Assembly: GCF_030268965.1 (NCBI RefSeq)
Contig: NZ_BSSE01000002.1
Span: forward strand, 62,001-126,000
Length of the DNA stretch: 64,000 nt
Reading direction: 5' to 3'
Origin: Microtetraspora sp. NBRC 16547
GTDB lineage: Bacteria; Actinomycetota; Actinomycetes; Streptosporangiales; Streptosporangiaceae
Below, in pieces: positions 20,968 through 35,055 of the stretch. Position 1 is the stretch's first letter, and the number at the start of each line of letters is the position of its first letter. The notes under the pieces are model-generated. The model saw nothing but the letters and a program-made list of their open reading frames with translations. It was not told the origin of the DNA and made no database searches. The position numbers were made by a program, and so were the translations under genes.

Positions 20968-21377
20968 GGCGGACGAGCCGGCCGGGCGGCCGCGTCGGGG
21001 TCTCGTGTTCTGCATGGACCCCGCCGAGGAAGGTCCGGGCTCCACAGGGCGAGGTGGTCGGTAACGCCGACCCGGGGCGACCCGCGGGACAGTGCCACAG
21101 AAAACAGACCGCCCCCTTCGCGGGGGTAAGGGTGAAACGGTGGTGTAAGAGACCACCAGCGCCCACGGTGACGTGGGCGGCTCGGTAAACCCCACCTGGA
21201 GCAAGGTCAAGAAGGGACGCTTCGCGAGGAGCGTCCCGCGCGCGACGTTCGAGGGCTGCCCGCCCGAGCCGCGCGGGTAGACCGCTTGAGGCCGCCGGCA
21301 ACGGCGGTCCTAGATGGATGGCCGCCGGCCGGTGAAAGCCGGCCACAGAACCCGGCCTACAGGCCGACTCGTCCGCC
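20968..21377 (+). ncRNA. rnpB: RNase P RNA (bacterial type A)
   Basis: About 410 nt. The ends were set by the P1 helix: GGCGGACGAG at 20968-20977 pairs with CTCGTCCGCC at 21368-21377, extended by GGCC/GGCC. Conserved core elements appear in order: the GAGGAA...GTCCGGGCTCC region, ACAGTGCCACAGAAAACAGA (P4/J region), GGTAAGGGTGAAACGG, AGACCACCAGCGC, TAAACCCC and the 3' core around AGATGGATGG. The last 33 bp also serve as a repeated attachment-like core (copy 1), so the functional 3' end of this essential RNA has been used as an integration target while keeping its sequence intact. Confidence 0.97.
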
Positions 21378-21378
21378 C
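21346..21378 (+). repeat. rnpB 3'-end att-like core, copy 1 (inside rnpB)
   Basis: 33 bp from CAGAACCCGG to CGTCCGCCC, overlapping the 3' strand of the rnpB P1 helix. Identical over 33 bp to copy 2, over 31 bp to copy 3, and with one mismatch over 31-32 bp to copy 4. Confidence 0.95.
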
Positions 21379-21677
21379 GCGCTCGCCACCGCGCCCGCGA
21401 ACACGTTCAGGCCCGCCGCCCCCGCTACCGGGCCGATCCCCACGTCCGGCAACAGGTGACGCAGCGGTTCCTCGCCGGTGTGGCCTCCCGCGCGCCCCGG
21501 AACCTCGACGTCCGCTACCGGACCGTCAACGGCGACCCGTCCGCGCTGCTGTTCGCCGGCGACGCACCCTTCGCCGTCATGGTCATCGACCTCAACGCAG
21601 AAGGAGATCAAATGGCGGAGATTTACGCCGTCACCAATCTCGACAAGCTCTCCCACCTCACAACACATGACTTCTGA
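21378..21677 (+). pseudogene. 3' fragment of an ECF41 (SigJ-like) sigma factor gene
   Basis: The frame opens exactly at the end of rnpB and has no start of its own. It encodes the end of sigma region 4 (RARHRAREHV, then RPRYRADPHVRQQVTQRFLAG) followed by the C-terminal SnoaL-like extension ending in the hallmark FAVMVIDLNAEGDQ and IYAVTNLDKLSHL. ECF41/SigJ sigma factors are about 290-330 aa; about 100 are left. Promoter recognition domains 2 and most of 4 are missing, so it cannot work as a sigma factor. The junction coincides with the att-like core, implying that site-specific or microhomology recombination removed the 5' part. GTG 21456 could be used only to make a truncated peptide. Confidence 0.8.
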
Positions 21678-22179
21678 CCCCGTTGGCGAGTTGCGCATAC
21701 GCAAGGAACAAGCGTTAACCGGCTTCGCGGCCTCCCCGGAGGCTAGTGTGTGCGCCGTCACTCGGTACTCCCCGGGTTTCGTGTTGCAGGTCGAAGTGGG
21801 CTCGTCACCTCTCGCGGACAGCCTGCGAGCGTACGGGGAGGCGACGTCGGACAAGTCGCGGGCCGGTGCGCCCGTGAAGACCGGCCTGTCCTCAGAGTCG
21901 ACGCGATCCCCCGAACGGAGCCTCTACCCACCGCAGCCGAGCGCTTCCTACCGGGCCGGTGACGTCGTCGTGTGTTCGCAGCCCGACGGCAGCGTGCCCA
22001 CCAAGCTCCAGCTCGCGGTGTTCCTCGCCGACGTCAGCGGCATCCAGCCGAGGGACGCGGTCGTCGGCAGGATCGAGAACCTCGGCGCCATCCAGAGGCT
22101 GGTCGACGCCGTCGCGAAGCAACCGGTCTCCAACGAACTGCTGACCGTGCAGCTCACCACCTCTCTCGTCATCGTCTAG
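21667..22179 (+). CDS. Hypothetical 171-aa protein, first of the Mau-like operon
   Basis: From ATG 21667, which overlaps the end of the sigma fragment by 11 bp. No signal peptide or membrane helix. The N-terminal half is Ser/Thr-rich and probably flexible (for example SRAGAPVKTGLSSEST). The C-terminal half looks folded (YRAGDVVVCSQP, KLQLAVFLADVSGI, VVGRIENLGAIQRLVDAVA). I do not recognise a family. The gene ends 7 bp before the MauE-like gene and so is likely co-transcribed with it. With the upstream region lost, its original promoter may be gone; transcription could come from read-through of rnpB. Confidence 0.55.
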   Translation: MTSDPVGELRIRKEQALTGFAASPEASVCAVTRYSPGFVLQVEVGSSPLADSLRAYGEATSDKSRAGAPVKTGLSSESTRSPERSLYPPQPSASYRAGDVVVCSQPDGSVPTKLQLAVFLADVSGIQPRDAVVGRIENLGAIQRLVDAVAKQPVSNELLTVQLTTSLVIV

Positions 22180-22186
22180 GGACCAG

Positions 22187-22720
22187 ATGCAGTACGTGCT
22201 CGGTGTACTGGCGTGTACGCCACTGATGGCCTCCACGATCGCGAAGGCGTGGGACTGGGCCTGGAACGCCAAGTCCCGCTCCATCCTGCCGACCTCTCTG
22301 GACCGTTCGCTCACCGTCGTCCAAGGTCTGCTCTGCGCCTGGTCCGTCCTAGCTCCGGCAGCCTGGGCGCTTTTCGCCGTAGCCGCTCTCTACGCGACGA
22401 TGGGAATCGCGGTCCTGTGGCTTCGGGTGCACAGAGGGCCCGCGGACTGCGGCTGCAGGGGGCGCTCCCGGCCGGGCCGGCTGAGTTTCCGGCTCGCGGC
22501 CACGAACCTCGCCCTCGCGGCGGCGGCCGCGGCGGTCACGATGCTGGAAGCGGTGAATCCGGAATTCGCACTACGGCTCTTCGTGCTGGCCACCGTCGCG
22601 ATCATCCTGTTCTTCCTCATGGTGATCGTTCCCGCCTACCGGCCGCTGATCAAGCGTTATCGAGAACTGGCCGACAGGTATCGGCTGTGGGCCGCCGGGT
22701 TCCCTCATCTTCGATCCTGA
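22187..22720 (+). CDS. MauE-like redox-associated membrane protein
   Basis: 177 aa with four to five hydrophobic segments (about 4-20, 44-80, 103-120, 129-150). A cysteine motif DCGCRGR at C88/C90 sits in a loop. This is the layout of the MauE/DoxX-like family, membrane proteins needed with MauD for maturation of methylamine dehydrogenase in other bacteria, where they help handle its many disulfides. ATG 22187 follows TAGGGACCAG. The MauD-like gene follows after 30 bp. Here the likely client is the Tat-exported 12-cysteine protein two genes downstream. Family assignment rests on topology plus the CxC motif. Confidence 0.75.
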   Translation: MQYVLGVLACTPLMASTIAKAWDWAWNAKSRSILPTSLDRSLTVVQGLLCAWSVLAPAAWALFAVAALYATMGIAVLWLRVHRGPADCGCRGRSRPGRLSFRLAATNLALAAAAAAVTMLEAVNPEFALRLFVLATVAIILFFLMVIVPAYRPLIKRYRELADRYRLWAAGFPHLRS

Positions 22721-22750
22721 TCGCCTGACCTTAGAGAGGAGATCGCGAGA

Positions 22751-23335
22751 ATGCCGATCGCCATCGTGGTGATTGTCGCCGTCTGTCTCGTGTTCACGAT
22801 CCTTAACATGATCATGACAGCGGTGCTCTTCCGGCAGCTGGGCCTGTTCGTTCTGGGGACCTCGCGCGGTGCCAACGACAGCGGCATCTCGATCGGCCGC
22901 AGAGTGCCCAAGACCGAGCTACCCGACATCCGCACGGGCCAGCCGGTGAACCTGCACGACGGGCGGGGGAAGCTGCTGTTCTTCGGGTCGACCACCTGTG
23001 GCGAATGCGCGCAGATCTACCCGGAGATCCTGGACGTGGAGCGTCGTTACGACATTCCCGTGGTGAACATCCTCTTCGGCTCGGACGTGGCCGACCTGTC
23101 GCAGTACGTCGAGAAACTCGACCTCAAGGGGGCGACCGTCTTCGCGACCGAGGACATCGCGCAGGCCTACGACGTCGAGGTGAGCCCATTCGCGTTCGTC
23201 GTGGACGACCGCGGAATCGTCGTGGCCAAGGGACTGCTCAACAACCGCGGCCGACTCATCGAGATGCTGGCTCCGATCCGGCAGGTGGACTTTCCTGAGG
23301 AGACCTTGAATGACATCGAAATTATCGCGCGATGA
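22751..23335 (+). CDS. MauD/TlpA-like membrane-anchored thioredoxin
   Basis: 194 aa. An N-terminal membrane anchor (residues 2-36) is followed by a thioredoxin-like domain outside the membrane, with KLLFFGSTTCGECAQI giving a CxxC pair at C83/C86 and a cis-Pro region (VEVSPFAFVVDD). This matches MauD, a thioredoxin-like protein required for making the small subunit of methylamine dehydrogenase. ATG 22751 has AGAGAGGAG upstream. Its last 26 bp overlap the start of the Cys-rich gene, so the two are coupled. Probable job: forming or shuffling disulfides in that partner, fed by the MauE-like protein. Confidence 0.8.
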   Translation: MPIAIVVIVAVCLVFTILNMIMTAVLFRQLGLFVLGTSRGANDSGISIGRRVPKTELPDIRTGQPVNLHDGRGKLLFFGSTTCGECAQIYPEILDVERRYDIPVVNILFGSDVADLSQYVEKLDLKGATVFATEDIAQAYDVEVSPFAFVVDDRGIVVAKGLLNNRGRLIEMLAPIRQVDFPEETLNDIEIIAR

Positions 23336-23720
23336 GAAATTCCAGCTGGGCGCCGCCCGGCTGACCCGGCGCATCGGACGGCGTAAGTTCCTGGGCAGGT
23401 CGGGTGCGGTGGCGGCGGCCATCGCTGGGTTCGTCGTCGGGGTCGACGCGGGCCCCGCCTTCGCGCACGGCACGTGCTCCCCGCCCCACGGCGCATACTG
23501 CCGAGGGTGTGCCGCGAGCTCGGAGTGCCCGACTGGCTTCGTCACCTGCACCCCCAGCTACAACCGTGGCTGTGGCCTATGCCCGTACAGCAGCGGCTGG
23601 TGGTACACGGGGACGTCCCCCAACCGGCACAAGTGCCGTGACTGCATCTCTTCGATTTACGGCCCCATCGGGTGTAGTGCCACCTGGCACTGCGGCTGCA
23701 AGTCCACGACCCACTACTGA
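23310..23720 (+). CDS. Tat-exported 12-cysteine protein, methylamine dehydrogenase light-chain-like
   Basis: 136 aa. The N-terminal region holds a twin-arginine motif RRKFLG (R24/R25) and a hydrophobic stretch ending in PAFA-H (predicted cleavage after A52). The mature part of about 84 residues contains 12 cysteines, three tryptophans (SGWWYTG and SATWHCGC) and little hydrophobic core. Size, Tat signal, cysteine count and the adjacent MauE/MauD pair all recall MauA, whose six disulfides surround a tryptophan tryptophylquinone. There is no large-subunit gene, and I cannot show that the Trp pair matches the TTQ residues. It may instead be an electron carrier or a metal-binding protein. ATG 23310 has GAGGAG 7 bases upstream. 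Confidence 0.75.
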   Translation: MTSKLSRDEKFQLGAARLTRRIGRRKFLGRSGAVAAAIAGFVVGVDAGPAFAHGTCSPPHGAYCRGCAASSECPTGFVTCTPSYNRGCGLCPYSSGWWYTGTSPNRHKCRDCISSIYGPIGCSATWHCGCKSTTHY

Positions 23721-23731
23721 GAAGGCTGCTC

Positions 23732-24367
23732 ATGACGTACGTATCAGTGGTTCTGGCGGCGATAGCCGGAGTGCTCTCCTTCGGCACCTCTTGAGGCCTC
23801 AACGCTGCCGGCACGCTGTATGCGTCGCCTCCGGGTTGGGCTCGTAGTTTCGCGCGCGGACTCGTCCGCGGAGCAGGCATGCTGGCGGTCGTCGTCCTCG
23901 TGCTCGCTGCTCTTTCGTGGTCGCTGCCAGTGCGGCAGGAGGCACGGCAGGCGGTGGCCGCGATTGTGGTCGGAGCCTTCATGGTGAGCGAGATTCTGGG
24001 CGGAGTCGGACATCGCAGAATGTCGCTGCGCTGGCTGGTACCGACGACATTGGTCAACGGCAACGATGCCACGGCCGCGATTCGGTGGGGTCGCTCGCTC
24101 GGCTTCGGGTTCCTGACCGACGCTCCCTATGCGGTTTTCCACGTGGCGCTGGTCGTCCCTGTTATCTTTGGCCAGGTCGGCGTAAGTCTCGTCGTGGTCA
24201 TCGCATTCGTTGTGGCCCGCGCGGTTCCTTATCTGATCGCGCCTATCGGGCGTAACGCGTCCTCGATTGGCGACTTCACGATCGGCGGCCGTGCCGTGCT
24301 TTTCGGCGGCGCACGGATTGTGTCCGCCGCGGCGTTGACGGCCACATTCGTCTGGATGGTGCTGTGA
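23732..24367 (+). pseudogene. Polytopic membrane protein interrupted by an in-frame TGA at codon 21
   Basis: Reading from ATG 23732 gives VLAAIAGVLSFGTS, then TGA (23792-23794), then GLNAAGTLYASPPGW and an uninterrupted frame to 24367 (211 codons in all). The frame on both sides looks like one membrane protein with about five helices. The TGA most likely replaces a Trp codon (TGG), giving a nonsense mutation. Re-initiation at ATG 23879 would yield a shorter protein of 162 aa lacking the first helix. Position in the operon, 11 bp after the Cys-rich gene and overlapping the lipoprotein gene by 4 bp, says it belonged to the Mau-like set. A sequencing error is also possible. Confidence 0.7.
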
Positions 24368-24927
24368 AGAGACTGATGAACGCGGTGACCGCGATTGTGC
24401 TGATCGCGGTCACCGCCGCCTGCGCGTCGAGCGAGGTCGAGCCCACGGCCGCCGACCTGCTGGCACGCCCGCTGAAGGTTCCCCAGATCCCGCCGGGCGG
24501 CGAATGCCCGGTCACCAAGATCATGACGCATCCCACCTCGCTGGCCGGCGACCTTCTGGGCGACGGCCCGGCGAGACCGGCCATCGAGTCGACGCTGCCC
24601 TACATCGGCGATGATCCGGGCACCCTGTTCGCGGGCAGTGGGTGGGGCGGAGAGAAGGTGTTGTGGCTGACCGACCCCGGTCTGAAGATGCCCCTCGTGA
24701 TCAAGGGGAAGCAGCTGGACGGCGACGGTCCGGTCAAGTTCGACGGCACGGACGGCCAGCCCCTACTCGACGAGATCGTCATTGCGCCCGACCCGTCGGC
24801 CAAGGACTGGCGCGACCGCCCGAGTTACGTCCGCCTGAAGCAGCCCGGCTGTTACGCGTTCCAGACGGACACCGCCGACGCCACACACGTCATCGTCTTC
24901 CGAGCCACAGGACCCGTCGTCTCGTGA
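24364..24927 (+). CDS. Lipoprotein, last gene of the Mau-like operon
   Basis: 187 aa from GTG 24364, which overlaps the preceding stop (GTGA). A short signal with lipobox VTAAC at residues about 16-20 predicts a lipid-anchored extracellular protein. The mature part is strand-rich (KVLWLTDPGLKMPLVIKGK, LDEIVIAPDP, ATHVIVFRATG) with two more cysteines (GECPV and QPGCYAF), likely disulfide-bonded. Conserved family not recognised. Given its place, it may be an accessory or docking partner of the Cys-rich exported protein. A strong hairpin 220 bp downstream probably ends the transcript. Confidence 0.7.
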   Translation: MKRLMNAVTAIVLIAVTAACASSEVEPTAADLLARPLKVPQIPPGGECPVTKIMTHPTSLAGDLLGDGPARPAIESTLPYIGDDPGTLFAGSGWGGEKVLWLTDPGLKMPLVIKGKQLDGDGPVKFDGTDGQPLLDEIVIAPDPSAKDWRDRPSYVRLKQPGCYAFQTDTADATHVIVFRATGPVVS

Positions 24928-25146
24928 GCACTGTTCGTTCCCTGACAGAGCAATCCCGCCTGGTCGCCAATGAGTAATCCGGCCTGGTCAAGGAGCTAGT
25001 GGGTTCTGTCGACACGCTGGTCGACGAGGCCGCCGTCGCCGTGTACCGCTGACCAACCGGATCTCGTCGAGTGGCGGCACGAGGCCAGGAACATCTCGCG
25101 CGAGGCGTGGAACGGTCTGCGAGCCGGACCGCCGAAAGGCTCCACC

Positions 25147-25172
25147 GGGTGGGAGGAGCGACCCTCCCACCC
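25147..25172. terminator. Bidirectional terminator hairpin
   Basis: GGGTGGGAGG (25147-25156) pairs perfectly with CCTCCCACCC (25163-25172) around a 6-base loop. It sits between the end of the Mau-like operon and the convergent SapA-like gene. Confidence 0.8.
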
Positions 25173-25183
25173 TTGCCGGCAGA

Positions 25184-25606
25184 TCAGGCGCAGTGCTCCC
25201 AGCCGCTCAACGTCTGGAAGGTCTGGCCAGCCGAGTCGGAGAACCTGCCACCCCACTGGACGCACTTGTTGTTGGCGTACACCCGCACCGGTCCGGCGTA
25301 GATCTTGTATTGGTTGCCGTCACGGTAGATGGTGGACGAGCCTTGCACCTGGATGCGTGCCTCGGTGAACGTCGCAGTGCCCGCCCCTCGGTCCTTTATC
25401 GCAACGACGCAGTTGTGACCGTTGCTGTTGTTGTAGAGCAGGTAGTACGTGCCCCACGGTGAGCTCGTCATCCGGTCGATGATCCGATAGCCAGACCCGC
25501 AGATGCTCTCAGGCGTTGCCGCACTGGCGGGTAGGGCAGGTGTCACAAGGGCCGCGGCGAGCGCGGTCACCACGGCAGCGCGAACGTAGGCACGGAAAGC
25601 AGTCAT
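25184..25606 (-). CDS. Secreted spore-associated protein A (SapA)-like
   Basis: 140 aa. A Sec signal peptide ends near PASAA (residue about 30), leaving a mature domain of about 110 residues. The pattern CGSGYRIIDR ... YYLLYNN ... NCVVAIK ... YAGPVRVYANNKCVQWGG ... WEHC matches the SapA family of small secreted spore-associated proteins of streptomycetes. Four cysteines probably form two disulfides. No enzymatic motif. ATG 25606 has GAGGGT upstream. A related gene lies immediately upstream on the same strand, so the pair may be co-expressed and have arisen by duplication. Confidence 0.8.
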   Translation of the reverse strand: MTAFRAYVRAAVVTALAAALVTPALPASAATPESICGSGYRIIDRMTSSPWGTYYLLYNNSNGHNCVVAIKDRGAGTATFTEARIQVQGSSTIYRDGNQYKIYAGPVRVYANNKCVQWGGRFSDSAGQTFQTLSGWEHCA

Positions 25607-25627
25607 GATGAGAGACCCTCTCGGTAA

Positions 25628-26047
25628 TTATCCGCAGTGAGAAGCCGTGGGAGATGTGGAAACTTCCCACGAATAGATTCTGCCGATCGCGTAGATGCAC
25701 CGGCCCCCGCCGGGTAGCGAACGAGGTCCCGCGTAGTACTGGTACCGGCCGTCGTCATAGTCCATGGCGCGCTGCCGGCAGGAGCTGGCCGGCTTGGTTT
25801 CCTCACAGACGATCAGGTAAACCGCCATGGGTTTGGAGACACCCCAGGTGGAACTGGACGAAACCGTTTTCACGCAGTTGCGCTTGGTCGCGGAGTCGTA
25901 ATAGACGTCCAGATGGCCGTATGTCTTAATCGCGATGTGCTCGATGAGCGAGCCGGAGCAGTCAGCGGCTTGCGCGGGGGACGCACCGGGCGCCACCAGT
26001 GCGACCATGACCAGCGAGATCGTGGTCACTATCGATCGTAAGCTCAT
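25628..26047 (-). CDS. Secreted SapA-like paralogue
   Basis: 139 aa with a Sec signal ending in PAQAA (residue about 28). The mature part shares the spacing of its neighbour: a DVYYDSATKRNCVKT strand pair, RYQYYAGPRS, GRCIYAIGR and a C-terminal HC, but overall identity is low and there are two extra cysteines. This suggests an old duplication of a SapA-like gene. ATG 26047 has AAGGACGG directly upstream. It ends 22 bp before the start of the other SapA-like gene. The surrounding 26.05-26.24 kb presumably holds the promoter; I see no clear boxes. Confidence 0.7.
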   Translation of the reverse strand: MSLRSIVTTISLVMVALVAPGASPAQAADCSGSLIEHIAIKTYGHLDVYYDSATKRNCVKTVSSSSTWGVSKPMAVYLIVCEETKPASSCRQRAMDYDDGRYQYYAGPRSLPGGGRCIYAIGRIYSWEVSTSPTASHCG

Positions 26048-26249
26048 ACCGTCCTTTTTCTCAGTTGGTCCGGTCGGTTGACTGATATCGGGTTAAGGAT
26101 CACTGCGCGCTTCGTAAAGGTCAAGAGGATCAAGGTTCTGTGAATCGGACTATTCGGGCATTCCCTTGGCCTGAAGTTATAAGGCGCGTACATAATCTGA
26201 ATTATGGTTGTGCTGTGCGTATGTAGCCCGGTTTGAGGATGGCCGAAAG

Positions 26250-26410
26250 GTGGGCCGCGCGAGGTGGATCGGATGCCGGCGAGCTCAGGGAACGCGCGGA
26301 ACGCCTCGCGCGGCGGCTCAGCGGCCGCGCGGAGGCGGTGCCGACGATCGCGAGGGTTGGTGGCGGGGGCGCACCAGGGGTGGAGCTGCCTAGCGCGGGA
26401 ATCGCCGTGG
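26250..26410 (+). pseudogene. selA: selA 3' fragment (L-seryl-tRNA(Sec) selenium transferase)
   Basis: The segment ELRERAERLARRLSGRAE followed by PTIARVGGGGAPGVELPS is the conserved C-terminal part of SelA, the PLP enzyme that converts Ser-tRNA(Sec) to Sec-tRNA(Sec). Only about 50 of roughly 430 residues remain, a further one-base frame change near 26270 is needed to join the preceding WIG part, and the end is fused to selB sequence. Non-functional. Confidence 0.75.
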
Positions 26411-26434
26411 GCCAGGAGCGTGGGGCCGTGTCCG

Positions 26435-27768
26435 GCGGTGATGATCGTCGTCGCCGCAGACGAAGGCTGGCAAGCTCAGTCGGCCGAACACCTGGCCGCA
26501 CTCGACGCCCTGGGCGTACGGCACGGCCTCGCGGTCATCACCCGGGCCGACCTCGCGAATCCGGAGCATGCCCTGAGGCAGGCTCACGGCCACCTCGAAA
26601 AAACCGGCCTGGCGGGGATCGACAGCGTCGTCGTCAGCGGGCGGACCCGGCAGGGATTCCCTGAGCTGGAGGCCGCACTGGCCCGGCTCGTCGCCGCGCT
26701 TCCCGAGGCGGACACGGAGGACGCGGTCCGGTTGCGGATCGACCGGGTGTTCACCATCACCGGGGCCGGGACCGTCGTCACCGGAACGCTGACCAGGGGA
26801 ACTCTCCGCGTCGGCGACGAGCTGAACACGGGCGGGCATCGAGTCAGGGTCCGCGCTCTCCAGACACTCGGCGAGAAAGTGGAGCGGGTCTCCGCGACCC
26901 CCCGCGTCGCCGTCAACCTTCGGGGCGTCGACCGTGACGACCTGTCCCGCGGCATGGCGCTGGTGACACCAGATGCCTGGATGGCGACTCGGGTCATCGA
27001 CGTACGGCTGGATTCGGGCATGAACCATCGAGGGGATGCGGTCCTCCATCTCGGGTCGGCCGCCGTTCCCGTCGGGCTCCGCTCCCTAGGCGCCGGCACC
27101 GCCAGGCTCACCCTCAGCCGCCCTCTGCCGCTCAGGACGGGTGACGGGGCCTGCTCCGCGACCCTGGCCGGCACGAGATCGTCGCCGGACTCCGAGTGCT
27201 GGACGTCCGTCCCGCCTCACTGCGGCGCCGGGGTGCCGCGGCCGCCAGGGCGGCCGCGCTTGACGAGGTGGACCTGCCCGATTCCGCGACCCTGCTGCGC
27301 TGGCACGGCCTGCTGACGGGAGGGGAGCTCACCGCGATGGGATGCCTGCCCAGCGGTTCGCCTGTGGTCGGCGACTGGTACACCGACCCCTCGCACTGGT
27401 CGTCGCTGGGACGTCGTCTCACAGAGCACGTCTCGCGACGACCCCCGCTCGATCTGGGGATCACCGTGGATGCCGCCGCCCAGCTGCTGGGCCTGCCCGA
27501 TCGGCGACTCGCCGAGGCGCTCCTCGCACCGCCTCTGATGGTCGAGGCCGGACGGATCCTTCCCGCCGCCAGGTCACTGCTTCCCTCGATCGCCAAGGCG
27601 GTCGCGGAGCTGGTCGCCGACCTCGCCGCGCGTCCCTTCCACGCCCCCACCGCCGAGCGCCTGGACGAGCTCGGTCTGACGGGCAAAGCGTTGGCGGCCG
27701 CGCTTCGCTCAGGCGCGGTGACGTCGATCGGGAAGAACGTCGTCCTTCTGCCCGGCGCCTCGGCTGCG
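26435..27768 (+). pseudogene. selB: selB remnant (selenocysteine-specific elongation factor)
   Basis: Starts inside the GTPase domain (VVAADEGWQAQSAEHLAALD, the region after G3, then AVITRADLA for the NKxD-like step), so the G1 P-loop is missing. Domains II/III follow (FTITGAGTVVTGTLTRG, DRDDLSRGMALV). At about 27150 a single missing base (GCC-TGCTC instead of GCC-CTGCTC) shifts the frame. The product then continues in another frame as LDVRPASLRRRGAAAARA and the winged-helix region, until it is cut off within VVLLPGA, where IS3-like sequence begins. SelB delivers Sec-tRNA to UGA codons; this copy lacks the GTPase motif and the SECIS-binding C terminus. Confidence 0.88.
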
Positions 27769-27971
27769 CCATGGTCTCGGGCGGTCTTCCAACTGGAGAT
27801 CAGCGAGGAGTACAGGCCTTCCCGGCGTAGCAGCGCGCCTTTGCCGGCCTTGTCGAGCTGTTCGTACTCCTGCAGGATCCGGGCCTTGTACGCCGCGGAG
27901 TACCGGCGGGCTGTTGCCCGCTCACGTACCTGCGGGTCAGGGGTCTCCGGGTCTGGCTGTCGTGCTCCCAC
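27768..27971 (-). pseudogene. IS3-type transposase OrfA, N-terminal fragment
   Basis: From GTG 27971 on the minus strand the frame encodes RRYSAAYKARILQEYEQLDK, then GALLRREGLYSSLISSWKTARD, the helix-turn-helix start of an IS3-family OrfA. It is cut off at the junction with selB after about 65 residues. No OrfB (DDE) remains and terminal inverted repeats are not certain. The insertion or a later deletion explains the lost selB 3' end. Confidence 0.8.
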
Positions 27972-28219
27972 GAAGGGATATCTCCTTCCCCACCCTCGAC
28001 ACAGAGTTATGTACCTGTTTGCTACCTCTGTCTAGTTTGACAGGGAGGGCCTGGACTGTGATGGCTCGCCCACGATGGAGGAGGCTTTCACCAAGGGGAC
28101 GCTGCTGGCGGTTCCGGTGCTGGCCGTCCAGATGTGGCTGATTGGTTTCGGAATCCGGTGGCTTCGGAACGGGTCGCGCTCGCTCGTCCGGAGAAGGCGT
28201 TCGCGCCGCGGAAGCGCAG
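27972..28219. other. Short region between IS3 remnant and arm motifs; possible small membrane ORF
   Basis: An ATG at 28075 opens a 66-codon frame with one hydrophobic helix (LLAVPVLAVQMWLIGFGI) followed by an Arg-rich tail. Small membrane proteins of this kind occur in actinomycete integrative elements, but there is no good ribosome site and the frame runs through the arm motifs. I would not call it a gene. Confidence 0.25.
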
Positions 28220-28240
28220 GGGGGCACATCGGGGGCACAT
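28220..28240 (+). repeat. Paired GGGGGCACAT arm-type motifs left of att copy 2
   Basis: GGGGGCACAT at 28220-28229 and 28231-28240, 11 bp apart, about 105-120 bp before the core. Same-phase pairs like this are typical integrase arm-binding sites. Confidence 0.65.
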
Positions 28241-28342
28241 GGCGTCGGAAGACAGCGGCGAACACTGTCAATTGACGGCAGCGTTCCTGGCAGCTCAGAA
28301 GCGATGCCTCTGATTCCGCCGCAGGTTACGGGCATGGGGAAT

Positions 28343-28375
28343 CAGAACCCGGCCTACAGGCCGACTCGTCCGCCC
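28343..28375 (+). repeat. rnpB 3'-end att-like core, copy 2
   Basis: 33 bp identical to the end of rnpB. No other rnpB sequence accompanies it. Confidence 0.95.
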
Positions 28376-28428
28376 CACCCCCGCCCGAACTGGGCATATG
28401 ATCCCGGAGTTTTGCCCCATCCCTTTGA

Positions 28429-28977
28429 TCAGAGTTGTCCGGGGCTGGCCATGCGATAGAAGAAGGGTCCGAGCCCGGCGGAGGCGACGGCTTGGATGAG
28501 CGGAAGGTGGTCCTCCAACATGCTGGCGTGCTCCAAGTCCCCGATATAGACGGGGTCAAAGCCGGCGTCGACGATTAGTTGCTCGGCGACCTGCCGAGCG
28601 TCCGGGTCGGCAGCGAATAGGTTGCTCGGGCGGACCCGCTGCTGTCCGATCTGGTCGTAGATCACCGCCCAGTTGGTGTTGAAGCTCTTGGCGGTCGGCC
28701 CACCGATGATGGACTTGATCTCGTGCGCCTGCGACGTGAACTGGGCGGAGCGTTGCCCGTAGGCGTTGGTCGCGTCGATGGTCACCTTGCCAGCAATGCC
28801 GGTCACGTTCGCCAACGCCGCCGCGATTGCCGGCCCGGGCACGGCGACCAGGACCACGTCGGCCGCCGATCCGTCACCGCCGTCACGGCCCAACGTGATG
28901 ACCTCGTGCCCGGCCTTCGACCAGATCTCGGCCAGTCCGCCGCCGATTCGGCCCCGACCCACCGTGACGATCTTCAT
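28429..28977 (-). CDS. NADP(H):F420-type oxidoreductase-like protein
   Basis: 182 aa from ATG 28977, which has AGGGGCG upstream. N-terminal Rossmann fold MKIVTVGRGRIGGGLAEIWSK (usual GxGxxG reads GRGRIGG), then HEVITLGRDG and ADVVLVAVPGPAI, as in the NADP-oxidoreductase, coenzyme-F420-dependent superfamily (PF03807). IIGGPTAKSFNTN follows the nucleotide domain. Full-length F420:NADPH oxidoreductases are about 220 aa; this is slightly short but keeps the core. It is the only gene between att copies 2 and 3, a self-contained 808-bp segment. Related proteins also act on other substrates, so F420 use is not certain. Confidence 0.8.
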   Translation of the reverse strand: MKIVTVGRGRIGGGLAEIWSKAGHEVITLGRDGGDGSAADVVLVAVPGPAIAAALANVTGIAGKVTIDATNAYGQRSAQFTSQAHEIKSIIGGPTAKSFNTNWAVIYDQIGQQRVRPSNLFAADPDARQVAEQLIVDAGFDPVYIGDLEHASMLEDHLPLIQAVASAGLGPFFYRMASPGQL

Positions 28978-29058
28978 GTGCGCCCCTGTCTGGTTGTCTG
29001 ACCACGACTCCTTGGGCCGGAGTTCAGATCCATCCATGGTCCCCGCGAATGGCGGACC

Positions 29059-29079
29059 GGGGGCGCTTTGGGGGCACAT
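29059..29079 (+). repeat. Paired GGGGGC arm-type motifs left of att copy 3
   Basis: GGGGGCGCTT (29059-29068) and GGGGGCACAT (29070-29079), again 11 bp apart. The following sequence GGCTTCGGAAAAC parallels GGCGTCGGAAGAC after the pair near copy 2. Confidence 0.65.
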
Positions 29080-29183
29080 GGCTTCGGAAAACGCTGGCAA
29101 GCGATGACAACGAACGGAAGCGTTTTCGCATGTCGCTTGCGGTCGAGAGCGAATCCGTGCAGGTAGCGAGCATGCGGAAATTG

Positions 29184-29214
29184 AACCCGGCCTACAGGCC
29201 GACTCGTCCGCCCC
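29184..29214 (+). repeat. rnpB 3'-end att-like core, copy 3
   Basis: 31 bp identical to rnpB positions 21348-21378. The integrase fragment starts 29 bp to its right. Confidence 0.95.
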
Positions 29215-29243
29215 TGCATCTCTGACCTGGGTTTATGTCTGGG

Positions 29244-29750
29244 TCAGGTACCGCTGTTCCGGTGCTGTTCCGCCAGTGCCGCAGCGATCATGACTTCGAC
29301 CGCACCTCTGCCGAGGTCTTCATCGTCCGGGAACAGGTGGCCGTATGTGTCCATCGTCTCGGCGATCGTGGCATGCCCCAGGCGCGCTTGAATGACCTTC
29401 GGGTTCAAGTTCGCCCTGATGAGACTCGACGCGTAGAAGTGCCTCAGGTCGCTCAACAAGCGCGTCCCCTTAGGCAGGTCTGCCGCGGCGACAGCTGCAC
29501 GCCAACACGTCCCGAATGTCGACCGCTGCACGGGCCGGCCGGAGCGATTGGCCACGAGCACCTCGTTCACGCCTGGGGCGTAATGCTGCATGTGAGCTGT
29601 GATCTGTTCGAGCACCGAGTCATCCGCCGGGACGGTCCGCCTCGAAGCCCTGGTCTTCAATGGCACCAGCTTGGTTGCCTGCATCTGCTCATGGATGTGG
29701 ACATGGCGCCACATTGGCGGGCGACGTGGGCGGCCCATCATCGGCGGCAA
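29244..29750 (-). pseudogene. Tyrosine-recombinase integrase, C-terminal fragment
   Basis: About 168 codons of a phage-type integrase catalytic domain: PLKTRASRRTVP (Arg I region), then LSDLRHFYASSLIRA, VIQARLGHATIAETMDTYGHLF with the nucleophile Tyr. The second catalytic motif normally reads HDLRH; here it is SDLRH, so its His is lost. The N-terminal arm-binding and core-binding domains (about 200 residues) are missing upstream, where a MecA_N-type gene ends at 29769. It reads toward att copy 3, 29 bp away, the normal layout for an integrase and its attachment site. It is probably the remnant of the enzyme that recognised rnpB, and is inactive. Confidence 0.85.
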
Positions 29751-29768
29751 GCTCGGCAGAGCGCCGCC

Positions 29769-30395
29769 CTAACCGGTGACCCCAGGTTGGGCCGAGTCGG
29801 CCAGGATTGCCGCCAGTTTGAGGCCTTCGTCGGCGAAGAGTCGTCCTGCCTGCTCTCCTTTGGCTCGCGTTTCCAGGAAGACCAGCCGGGAGGAGCCGTC
29901 GCGTTGGGGTACGACTCGGATCTGCCGTACCTCGCTGGAGCCGATCTCCTGCAACTCGGGGTGGATCACGGTCGGTGACCAGTGAACTTTCCAGGCGCGG
30001 TCAAAATCGATGATCTTCAGGTGTCCGTCATAGGTATAGGGGACCGGGCCGTCGAGGGTGACGGAGAACGTGGCGTAGTAGGTGGCGGTCTCCCCGAAAT
30101 TCCGGTTGTCCTTGGGGTGGACGCGGATCCTCTGGATGGTGATCTTCTTGGCCTGGGAGCCCTTGGTGAAGGCGTCATAGATGCCGTCGAAGTCTCGGGG
30201 CGGTTCCAGCACCTGGGCTTTCATGGCGGGCAGGTCGCCGCGTTGCCAGGCCATCAGGAACGCGGTCGCCGTCTGCTGGGGCGAGCCTTTGGTGCGCACC
30301 GACAGGTAGACGGCAGTGCCTAGACCGAGGATGGCAGCCAGGGCTACGGCGGTGGTGATCCCTGTCCGTCGCCAGCGGGGAGGAAATACGGGCAT
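29769..30395 (-). pseudogene. Penicillin-binding protein N-terminal (MecA_N/NTF2-like) fragment
   Basis: 208 codons from ATG 30395; a GTG at 30422 is an alternative and neither has a ribosome site. A membrane anchor (TTAVALAAILGLGTAVYLSV) is followed by an NTF2-like domain (ATAFLMAWQRGDLPAMKAQV, YYATFSVTLDGPVPYTY, WKVHWSPTVIHPEL). The W-SP-IHP signature is typical of the MecA_N domain in front of class B penicillin-binding transpeptidases. The transpeptidase domain (SxxK, SxN, KTG) is absent and the last 45 residues do not resemble the family. Either a truncated PBP or a stand-alone NTF2-like membrane protein; I favour truncation. Confidence 0.6.
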
Positions 30396-30789
30396 ATCGG
30401 GCGACCCTATCGGCTGGACCACAACACGTGATCCACAGGATTTGACAATTGCTCACCGTACCCGCCTGAGATCAAATACCGGGCCAACGTTCAGAGACGG
30501 GCCACTAGATCCCCGAGAAATGCGTGGGGGCCTGTGCAAACGCGCGTCGCGTCAACGCTGTCAATGGGGTGCCCGTCGCCGGCGCCGCGAGACTGGCGAA
30601 GAACTCCGCTTGTCAAAGGCAACCGCCAGGCGATCTTCGCCGAAGACGATGCTCTGGTTGGGCCTGGTGTACCCGTGACCGGCAGGCGGGCCCTCGCTAC
30701 GCCGGCCCCGGGGCCGATAGGGCGCACCTCGGGACTGCGTTTCACCTTCCCACCTCCACGCCTGCCGGCCAATCCGGCACGCTATACGC
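30396..30789. other. Intergenic region inside the third segment, no supported gene
   Basis: About 390 bp. Open frames on both strands are short and of low credibility. No repeat or RNA was recognised. Confidence 0.5.
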
Positions 30790-31341
30790 TCAGCCGGACC
30801 ATTGACGAGTCGGTCCGGCCAGCGTCTCGATGGACAGCGGCGGGCATGTCTCCTGCTTCTGGGTGAGGTCCGCGAGTTCCTCCGGAGGCTCAGCACCGTC
30901 CCGTATGGCCATGACATAGGCCTTTGCCTCCCGCAGTCCTGGCTGCGGAGCCTGCTTGCGTAGGTGGCGTATCGCGGCCATCGTTCCCTCGGAGCGCAGG
31001 AGCTCTCGGACGGTCGCGACCAGCGGATCGGGAGGTCGGATGCCCTTGACCTGTCGGAGGTACAGCTCCTCCCAGTCCTCGCGTACGTATGTGGTGACGG
31101 GGATGTGGTGGATGCTCTCGTCCTGCCGGTTCACCAGGTAAGGGCCGTGGCCCACCAGCATCTGCTCATGTGCACAGCTGCGGATGTAATCCACCAACTG
31201 CCAGAAGACCAGCCAGCCGAGAGAATGTTCCTCCACGTCAAGGACAGCGAGTTCGGGCAGTCGTGCCATCCACGGCGACTCTTGCCGCTCACGCGACAGC
31301 AGGGCCTCAACCAGTTCGACGGCGCGTTCCTTGGTGACCAC
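30790..31341 (-). CDS. Imm35/YrhB-like protein with bL12 C-terminal-like helix pair
   Basis: 183 aa from GTG 31341 (GATGAGGGC precedes it); ATG 31458 would add 39 residues. Residues about 3-100 match the YrhB/Immunity-protein-35 fold: ERAVELVEALLSRE, LAVLDVEEHSLGWLVFWQ, then GHGPYLVNRQDESIHHIPV. The C terminus (ATVRELLRSEGTMAAIRHLR, then GLREAKAYV) resembles the ribosomal L7/L12 C-terminal domain motif. Imm35-like proteins occur as immunity partners in polymorphic toxin systems, but no toxin gene is next to it. The combination of both domains in a single small protein, inside an integrated element, suggests a stand-alone defence or regulatory role. Function not established. Confidence 0.65.
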   Translation of the reverse strand: MVTKERAVELVEALLSRERQESPWMARLPELAVLDVEEHSLGWLVFWQLVDYIRSCAHEQMLVGHGPYLVNRQDESIHHIPVTTYVREDWEELYLRQVKGIRPPDPLVATVRELLRSEGTMAAIRHLRKQAPQPGLREAKAYVMAIRDGAEPPEELADLTQKQETCPPLSIETLAGPTRQWSG

Positions 31342-31519
31342 GCCCTCATCATTCACCGCAACTTGGACCAGGCGCACACCGCCCAGATCGACTCTGTTCC
31401 GTCTCCGTTCCGCCGGAGCGCCAGCGATGCCCAGAACCTTTGGCAACTGCTGGAACATGAAATCGCAGCTCAGGCCCGATTTCGAGGAGTAGCCGCAGGC
31501 CAGGGAAATGCTGCGATAA

Positions 31520-31550
31520 GAACCCGGCCTACAGACCGACTCGTCCGCCC
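31520..31550 (+). repeat. rnpB 3'-end att-like core, copy 4 (one mismatch)
   Basis: 31 bp with a single G-to-A change at 31535 relative to the other copies. The 60 bp to its left (GCAGCTCAG...GCCGCAGG) resemble the sequence left of copy 2. Confidence 0.93.
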
Positions 31551-31591
31551 TCGCCCCTCTGACCAGCAGCTTTCTCAGCGAGGCCAAGATC

Positions 31592-31611
31592 AGGGCACAT
31601 TCAGGGCACAC
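31592..31611 (+). repeat. Paired AGGGCACA arm-type motifs right of att copy 4
   Basis: AGGGCACAT (31592-31600) and AGGGCACAC (31603-31611), 11 bp apart, 42 bp right of the core. Likely an arm left over from a further deleted element. Confidence 0.55.
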
Positions 31612-32010
31612 GGACTCGCAGCGGCCTGCGGCAGCGGCAGCGGCAGGAGCGGAGACGACAAGGCAGCCGGCGTCACCGAGGTCGCCGGTGGTGGTGCCGA
31701 CGGCGGCGCGGGAGGTGTCGCGGGTGGTGCGGACAACGCGGCGCTCTGCGCGGAGGCGCTCGCCGCGTCGGGCGACTTCATGACCAAGGTGATGGCGGCG
31801 GCCTCCGACCACAAGGGCATCAACAAGGCGATCTCGGACCACGCCAGCACACTCAAGAAGATCTCCGAGCGGGCTGACGGCGATCTCGAGGCGGTCCTGT
31901 CCGAGATGGTCGACGCGTTCTCCCAGCTCGACGTCGACTCCGTCACGGCGGCCGACGTCAGCAGGGAGGTCGACGCGGCTACCAAGAAGCTCATGGCCGC
32001 CTGCTCCTGA
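31612..32010 (+). pseudogene. Lipoprotein gene lacking its signal peptide start
   Basis: The frame enters directly after the arm-type motifs as GLAAACGSGSGRSGDD, which looks like the lipobox end of a lipoprotein, but no signal peptide or start codon precedes it. The mature domain is helical (AEALAASGDFMTKVMAAASD, then LKKISERADGDLEAVLSEMV and VDAATKKLMAACS) with two further cysteines, like many small actinobacterial lipoproteins of unknown role. The beheading coincides with the right end of the integrated array, so an element or deletion removed the 5' end. ATG 31780 could only give a cytosolic fragment. Confidence 0.65.
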
Positions 32011-32170
32011 GCCCCTTCAATACTCCAGCCCCCAGTCGTGCGGCCTCGGGCGACAGTGCCGGAGCTGGCAGCTACCGCGAGCAGGGAGGAGAACGGCGCA
32101 ATCTCAAGGCCGAACTTGTCGCGCCGTCGCCGTCCCGCTGCCGCTACCCGGTGGGTCGAGGCAGACGCTT

Positions 32171-32245
32171 GAGCCGGATGCTCGGAAACGGGCACGTCCG
32201 GTTCTGGGGGGGCCGGGGCGCCGCAATGTGCTCCGGCTACCCGAC
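32171..32245 (+). mobile_element. Orphan group II intron domains V and VI
   Basis: 32171-32204 is a 34-nt domain V: GAGCCGGA pairs with TCCGGTTC, a 2-base CG bulge, then TGCTCG/CGGGCA closed by a GAAA tetraloop. The catalytic triad AGC is at 32172-32174. Domain VI follows with GCCGGGGC/GCTCCGGC and an unpaired A at 32239, seven bases (inclusive) before a GAC 3' end at 32245. A GTGCG at 32038 could be the 5' end of a heavily shortened intron, but domains I-IV and the reverse transcriptase are not recognisable. Likely a remnant. Confidence 0.75.
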
Positions 32246-34443: not shown

Positions 34444-35055
34444 TCAGCGGGCGATCCCGTGCAGGGAGCACACGTGCCGCCAGATGGCGGGGTCCAGGTC
34501 GCCGGCGCGGTCCTGGAAGGCAGCGGTGGCGACCCGGATCGGATCGCTCAGATCGAGGAAGCTGTTGTGGTCGGCGTTGTGATCCCACGTACGCGTCGGG
34601 ATCTCGATGTGGTCGCTGCGATGGCGCTGGTCCTGGCTCGTGATCTTCAGGACGTCGGCGCCGTCCCGGTGCGTCCGCAGCACCACACAGGGCCGGATCT
34701 TGGAACCGGGCCCGTCCTCGAACGGCACGTCCGCCCACCAGATCTCCCCGGGGCGCTGCGCCGCGCCGGCCGCTCCCGCGTCCTGTCTCGGAGGCAGCCC
34801 GCTCGGCCGCTGCCCGCCCGGCCGTCGCTCACCGGACGGCTGACCGGACCGGCGCTCCGGAGCGGGTACGCCGGTCCGGCGGGTCGTGGGGCGTGCTCCC
34901 GGCCGTCGGGGTGGCGCGGCGGCGCCTCGGCCGGTGCCCGGCCTGGCCGAGGGTCGCTCCCGGCCCCGCCGCTTCGTGATGGTGGCGCGCGCTACGGCGA
35001 GGGCGGCGGCCAGCAGCGCGGCGAGGGCGACGAAGGTCGGAGGGAGATCCCGCAT
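34444..35055 (-). CDS. Membrane-anchored PemK/MazF-like protein
   Basis: 203 aa from ATG 35055. An N-terminal helix (FVALAALLAAALAVARATI) is followed by about 75 residues of Arg/Pro-rich linker, then a PemK/MazF-like barrel: GEIWWADVPFEDGPGSKIRPCVVLR, with the R-P-C-V-V-L motif typical of the family, then a KITSQD segment. MazF-type proteins are ribosome-independent mRNA endoribonucleases. No antitoxin gene is adjacent on either strand, and the membrane anchor plus linker are unlike classical toxins. It may be a housekeeping member restrained at the membrane rather than a toxin. Catalytic residues not verified. Confidence 0.75.
   Translation of the reverse strand: MRDLPPTFVALAALLAAALAVARATITKRRGRERPSARPGTGRGAAAPPRRPGARPTTRRTGVPAPERRSGQPSGERRPGGQRPSGLPPRQDAGAAGAAQRPGEIWWADVPFEDGPGSKIRPCVVLRTHRDGADVLKITSQDQRHRSDHIEIPTRTWDHNADHNSFLDLSDPIRVATAAFQDRAGDLDPAIWRHVCSLHGIAR

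Follow-up and report, generated by a model that had tools for sequence, protein, structure and literature searches.

The 64,000-nucleotide stretch of Microtetraspora sp. NBRC 16547 analysed here, which we call the window (contig NZ_BSSE01000002.1, positions 62,001 to 126,000), carries a complete rnpB gene for the class A RNA of RNase P, and the 3′ end of that gene recurs three times to its right on the same strand (Table 1). This rnpB is the sole match to RF00010 in the 7.8-Mb draft genome of the source strain. The repeated segment, a 32-bp core, is made up of the final 29 nt of the RF00010 match plus 3 nt and includes the 3′ strand of the terminal helix of RNase P RNA, an overlap that the initial annotation of this DNA had recognized. 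The displaced copies differ from the rnpB end at no more than one position each and, since the window holds a single rnpB, they stand without the remainder of the gene, again as first described. No match to the core beyond these four was found in the window on either strand at up to six mismatches, and so close a 32-bp repeat within 64 kb cannot be put down to chance. Copies 2 and 3 have homologous left flanks (28220–28376 versus 29059–29214), as proposed, with 73% identity over 158 bp. The proposal that copy 4 shares the nearest 60 bp with them did not survive: BLAST aligned copy 4 with the other two over the core alone, plus 14 nt rightward with copy 3, and its left flank is of a different motif type. 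A 63-bp stretch around copy 4 aligns loosely (83%) to rnpB itself.

Table 1 Features of the rnpB array in the window. ORF, open reading frame; G001, another genome.
Feature	Position	Strand	Details
rnpB, class A RNase P RNA, complete	20974-21375	+	RF00010, 281 bits
Core 1, rnpB 3′ end, attL-like	21347-21378	+	AGAACCCGGCCTACAGGCCGACTCGTCCGCCC
Unit A, 7.0 kb, decayed or composite	21379-28343	.	core 1 to core 2
Unit A right-end arm, type I (GGGCAC repeats)	28220-28343	+	
Core 2, displaced copy	28344-28375	+	0 mismatches to core 1
Unit B, 838 bp core to core	28376-29181	.	single reductase-like ORF (PF03807, E 5e-5)
Unit B right-end arm, type I	29059-29181	+	73% identical to unit A arm over 158 bp including core
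Core 3, displaced copy	29182-29213	+	1 mismatch to core 1
Unit C, 2.3 kb	29214-31518	.	integrase remnant, MecA_N ORF, Imm35 domain
Truncated tyrosine integrase, clade II	29244-29750	-	PF00589, E 1e-13
Unit C left-end motifs, type II (TGTTCCG)	29251-29275	+	overlap integrase 3′ end
Unit C right-end arm, type II	31385-31518	+	
Core 4, displaced copy	31519-31550	+	1 mismatch to core 1
Type I motifs right of core 4	31586-31613	+	GGGCAC repeats as right of rnpB in G001

The truncated tyrosine integrase reported beside copy 3 and directed at it lies where it was said to lie, on the minus strand with its 3′ end 30 bp from core 3. It is the C-terminal part of the protein, and over the aligned part it is 66% identical to a complete integrase at rnpB in genome G018 (G and L numbers denote genomes and loci, and g numbers genera). 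It lacks the N-terminal half present in two complete relatives and reads LLSDLRH where relatives have FHDLRH, so that Ser replaces the His of HxxR, presumably a functional residue of the motif; for both reasons it is very likely inactive. From core 4 rightward, positions 31519–31611 match the right flank of rnpB in G001 at 78% identity, and the type I motifs right of the core probably mark the left end of a fourth element that lacks a right end; sequence common to the window, G002 and G003 restarts at 34446.

With high confidence we take the 3′ end of rnpB to be the chromosomal attachment site (attB) for tyrosine-integrase elements of the type known as actinomycete integrative and conjugative elements (AICEs), and the window to preserve a decayed stack of them, best read as the accretion of at least three decayed elements. 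The integrase would recombine a core of about 27–32 bp common to the element and the rnpB end; the incoming element would supply an equivalent 3′ end, keeping rnpB whole, and the displaced original end would mark the element's far side. The restored end could then be reused by a later element, so that elements would stack beside rnpB, and decay of such a stack could leave what the window holds, namely four cores that delimit units A, B and C, the probable left end of a fourth element and one integrase fragment that is very likely inactive. The repeats with their order and orientation, the agreement of unit ends, the placement of the integrase and the AICE gene sets found at this core in other genomes are observed; we infer the recombination itself, the order of arrival and a past of units A and B as AICEs or relatives of them. 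The AICE hallmark of an integrase beside an attachment site is present in the window, but only as the broken fragment; no Rep initiator or FtsK/TraB translocase was found among the 20 window proteins scanned with Pfam, and the window units are therefore not filed as AICEs.

Arrays of this kind recur in the window's family. A 21-base core pattern, searched with at most one mismatch in 297 family genomes including that of the source strain, was present in 205; 56 genomes had at least two matches (146 matches together). In 35 genomes two or more cores shared a contig and a strand within 25 kb; none of the 297 had an opposite-strand pair that close, and the remaining 21 multi-match genomes had their matches on separate contigs (18) or far apart on one (3). 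All 35 arrays, the window's included, were analysed at the level of sequence. rnpB is the first core in 34 of them (the exception is L107 in G079), and 25 have an integrase ORF within 1.5 kb to the right of a core. With a profile built from the integrases of these same arrays, and with ORFs counted from stop to stop, so that one broken gene may count more than once, we found 39 integrase ORF–core pairs, every one on the minus strand and pointing at the core, none on the plus strand, and 29 of them within 85 bp. Accretion of related elements at rnpB, first suggested for this one locus, is supported by tandem cores elsewhere.

Compared with their own rnpB over 27 nt, 10 of 40 displaced copies were identical and 30 had 1–5 differences; the copies were found through the core pattern, so their high conservation at positions 0–20 is partly built in, but this does not apply to the drop in identity left of −4 and right of +26. 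To the left of these 40 cores, identity to rnpB is 58–83% at positions −4 to −1 and 10–40% at −12 to −5. One pair of genomes differs by a whole unit: the second unit of G148 (1569 bp) and the first unit of G162 share 96% identity over 1535 bp. A 785-bp unit, which sits exactly between rnpB and the unit common to both, was thus either gained by G148 or lost by G162. G002 was considered as an empty site, having one core and no integrase match, and was set aside since the gene shared downstream is preceded by 2.9 kb of unmatched DNA.

The ends of the units agree with one another. Four end motifs were chosen by eye on both sides of the core, and all ends were then typed by pattern; among the 41 core-to-core units of the 35 arrays, 23 were typed without a tie at both ends and 22 of these agreed, a level reached in 0 of 100,000 label shuffles. 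The arrays fit the pattern of accretion, with units in tandem at one site, bounded by cores and with ends that match in all but one of the typed cases. In a tree of 24 integrases and fragments, those adjacent to TGTTCCG form one clade (II in Table 1) and most of those adjacent to GGGCAC form another (I), the two being about 30% identical; this assignment of clades to motifs was made by eye and the tree's support values vary. G018 holds both clades in tandem, in units of 17.0 and 18.5 kb with a full-length integrase ORF at each left core.

Units at rnpB in other genomes supply the gene sets that the window lacks. RepSA and FtsK-type genes accompany the integrase in L057 (11.9 kb; RepSA E 2e-113, FtsK/SpoIIIE E 2e-11), in L054 (12.0 kb; RepSA E 1e-154, FtsK E 3e-29, with a helix-turn-helix (HTH) protein) and in the 18.5-kb G018 unit 2 (RepSA E 3e-168, FtsK E 2e-23, with DUF2637, HTH and an IS4-type transposase). 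With an integrase, a pSAM2-type RepSA and a clear FtsK match, these three are AICEs by gene content. L056 (12.8 kb) encodes an integrase, RepSA (E 6e-73) and a GntR-UTRA regulator, its FtsK match being borderline (E 3e-5; 24.2 bits against a cut-off of 24), and the 17.0-kb G018 unit 1 encodes an integrase, FtsK (E 2e-6), DUF2637 and HTH, with no RepSA among the 8 ORFs scanned. Integrase calls in L054, L056, L057 and G018 unit 1 rest on our own profile and alignments, and that in G018 unit 2 also on Pfam. Units with a full integrase at this core and AICE genes inside, of the kind that the initial annotation had proposed to look for as intact elements, thus occur elsewhere, with the second core 12–18.5 kb away. 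A 2.9-kb unit in L102 matches both ends of G018 unit 2. L060 was considered as a similar derivative with both L057-like ends and was rejected, BLAST giving the left end only, joined to a stretch 9 kb further in.

The association extends beyond the family. Clade II integrase relatives were scanned for in species genomes, and of the best 80 of 334 relatives 33 were checked by script and 27 by Rfam. Within these best 80, all 11 relatives of at least 51% identity have rnpB next to the integrase 3′ end; they come from Planomonospora, Nonomuraea, Planotetraspora, Actinomadura, Nocardiopsis, Actinorugispora and a Jatrophihabitans metagenome-assembled genome (MAG), with rnpB identified by Rfam in nine (L116 being cut by a contig end) and by script plus Rfam on overlapping loci in L108 and L112. 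At 35–44% identity rnpB adjoins the integrase in 7 of 18 Rfam-scanned relatives and not in 11, two of the latter (L124, L132) having the core with no Rfam match. In three of the seven, a Mycobacteriaceae MAG and two Dormibacterota MAGs, the integrase 3′ end faces rnpB; in the other four (L120, L123, L129, L131) the 5′ end does, possibly reflecting a different element design. A clade I integrase used as query gave matches of E 1e-60 or better in 20 of the 394 class genomes, at 23 places in all, with rnpB detected by Rfam at 9 of 20 loci scanned and by script at L239; two of the matches, L218 and L220, lie within the arrays of G018 and G036. In a second family, a further core, at 9.9 kb in G594 and 15.8 kb in G601, carries the host's own rnpB variant. 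On our reading, the rnpB end is a docking site for self-transferring elements in various actinobacteria.

Several observations weigh against integration at rnpB as the source of these arrays. No excision or circle was seen that would bear out recombination at the core, no complete element is left in the window, where units A and B have no left-end motifs, and in 10 of the 35 arrays no integrase lies within 1.5 kb of any core. The unit ends of L062, one of the typed units, disagree, and in L106 and L107, where a tied left end is paired with a type II right end, the ends would disagree as well if the left one were read as type I. Three genomes have an integrase at rnpB but no further core within the sequence retrieved (G113 and G061 from the window's own family, G377 from the second family), and G532, also of the second family, has only a 14-base match 17 kb away as a second core. 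Furthermore, core copies occur away from rnpB: at least three arm-plus-core copies in the source genome (G000; C34:60340, C53:13495 and C26:2094, given as contig and position), seven core matches outside the array in G143 and many copies in genus g23. G248 has two cores 1.8 kb apart (L300, 747 and 2507) with no rnpB signature before either. At 14 non-rnpB places, with 2–20 kb taken upstream, there was no second core; 8 had no integrase match and none of the matches at the other 6 was positioned as at rnpB. The initial annotation had named copies far from rnpB as the finding that would speak against integration there, and in part they do, both in this genome and in others; core placement and integrase direction still favour rnpB.

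These dispersed copies may be remnants of integration at secondary sites, products of rearrangement or artefacts of assembly. The first of these gained no support at the 14 places, given the missing second cores. Many of the dispersed copies (L071–L088, L090 and the G000 sites) carry an arm motif, and in several the identity ends just past GACTCG.

Three other explanations were weighed. Phages rather than conjugative elements might use rnpB as attB, which we judge improbable: tyrosine integrases also serve phages and the rnpB-adjacent elements were examined in part, but all five gene-scanned units carry FtsK-type genes, four carry RepSA, and no phage structural family appeared among the matches of the scanned proteins of the window and these five units, part of whose ORFs were scanned. 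A search of phage records with a 37-bp core returned two matches only, MT835553.1 (L188) and MT836823.1 (L189), and both contain a complete rnpB amid chromosomal genes. They are unverified ‘phage’ records from stool. The arm-plus-core query had no match in phage or plasmid records; the bare core matched twelve plasmid records, one of them over 80% of its length.

Slightly less probable still is that the arm plus core is a dispersed repeat of about 150 bp, moving by itself like a small non-autonomous transposon, that landed three times near rnpB by chance. The three copies elsewhere in the source genome and the seven outside the G143 array are what such a repeat would give, as is the arm motif typed in 13 of the 19 non-rnpB copies retrieved from genus g23 (one a tie). 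However, each of the 35 arrays lies on one strand, with rnpB as the starting point of 34, the core is none other than the rnpB end and tracks the host's rnpB variant in another family, and the unit ends match in motif type; a dispersed repeat leaves unexplained why arrays begin at rnpB with integrases aimed there. Partial duplication of rnpB by homologous recombination or unequal crossing-over, with no integrase, fits L068 (G127), where the second core near 2598 is identical to rnpB over the 12 nt to its left and follows a longer, deleted rnpB-like piece amounting to a partial second rnpB, but is very improbable as a general account given the collapse of identity left of the 40 displaced cores and the single rnpB, at most, that Rfam gives per locus searched.

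Beyond integration of AICE-like elements at rnpB, a broader proposal can be put forward only tentatively: that rnpB has long and widely served as an integration port in Actinomycetota, possibly also in Dormibacterota, at which AICEs exchange alleles of the terminal helix, with its 5′ strand following. As framed, it covers several integrase lineages (the two clades and branches such as L093 and L099) and four end-motif types at one core. With the crossover inside the RNA gene, each integration would overwrite the last nucleotides of rnpB. rnpB and a displaced copy differ at core base 17 in G194 and G125 and at base 10 in G172. In genus g4 the facing 5′ base covaries with base 17: all 19 genomes with A17 have T there, and 14 of the 16 with G17 have C (p 5e-8, the species not being independent); in genus g65 and in the window's rnpB it is C facing A, a mismatch. 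An integrase lies beside rnpB in 4 of 8 A and 0 of 7 G genomes of g65 (p 0.08, Fisher test) and in 8 of 19 A and 3 of 16 G genomes of g4 (p 0.17; G248 was left out, having no rnpB signature before its core), and pooling the two genera gives p 0.02. Against allele exchange, most rightmost displaced copies share the allele of rnpB.

As for the remaining contents of the window's units, unit A starts with a SigJ-like C-terminal fragment directly at core 1, with no left-end motifs; because core 1 abuts the end of this gene, the left end of the unit has been lost, and the unit may be composite. It also contains MauE/MauD-like genes and a selB-like fragment. The former stand at 22187–23720 as a row of a MauE-like gene, a MauD/thioredoxin-like gene and a gene for a small Cys-rich protein, resembling by weak matches a maturation cluster of the methylamine-dehydrogenase type. 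The latter, at 26264–28035, is a partial-length SelB-like match (TIGR00475 below cut-off) that seems broken. No integrase match was found in unit B. The frame of the Imm35 ORF in unit C extends beyond core 4. To the right of the array, positions 32169–32245 match the end of a group II intron (RF00029, 60 bits), another mobile remnant.

AICE accretion at a tRNA gene is known, and descriptions of these elements have until now centred on tRNA genes. In the 2011 AICE survey (PMC3218068), the great majority of the survey's AICEs with a tyrosine integrase sit in tRNA 3′ ends, and whether distinct AICEs can share one site in tandem is described as unclear; rnpB occurs 0 times in its text. A 2022 Streptomyces study (PMC9513070) reports that AICEs and DAICEs with different integrases accrete at tRNA-Arg; its tally of sites is 36 in tRNA genes, 14 in protein genes and 1 intergenic. 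The accessible parts of PMC2516327, PMC2386152, PMC2705793, PMC8776855, PMC2864759, PMC10654092, PMC9569102, PMC10763512, PMC10383233 and PMC4383910 do not name rnpB as an integration site; PMC9569102 does refer to predicted extra rnpB copies in mycobacteria. In the open-access literature as far as available to us, with subscription papers and supplements outside the search, no paper names rnpB as an attachment site. The view of rnpB as an unusual target therefore stands for the literature searched, and that scope leaves priority unproven.

If our reading is correct, an essential catalytic RNA gene joins the targets of conjugative elements, and its end could provide sites for integration vectors in little-studied actinobacteria. 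Distantly related integrases with different end motifs would be able to use one core, the rewriting of a ribozyme end by mobile elements would become testable, and pipelines restricted to tRNA and tmRNA genes would overlook these elements.

Among known systems, the elements at rnpB most resemble AICEs of the pSAM2 type in their tyrosine integrase beside the att site, RepSA, FtsK-type translocase, HTH and GntR regulators and a 3′-end target that is kept whole; they differ in that the target is rnpB. Cis-mobilizable elements (CIMEs) have att ends with no recombination gene. Unit B and other units with no integrase match likewise keep their att sites and have no int, but units as small as 0.8–1.6 kb are present here and their mobilization is putative. 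The tRNA-Arg arrays of PMC9513070 are comparable in that one to three elements of different families are stacked between identical direct repeats; those arrays occupy a tRNA gene in one population, whereas the arrays described here occupy rnpB in many genera, the units in the window being mostly decayed.

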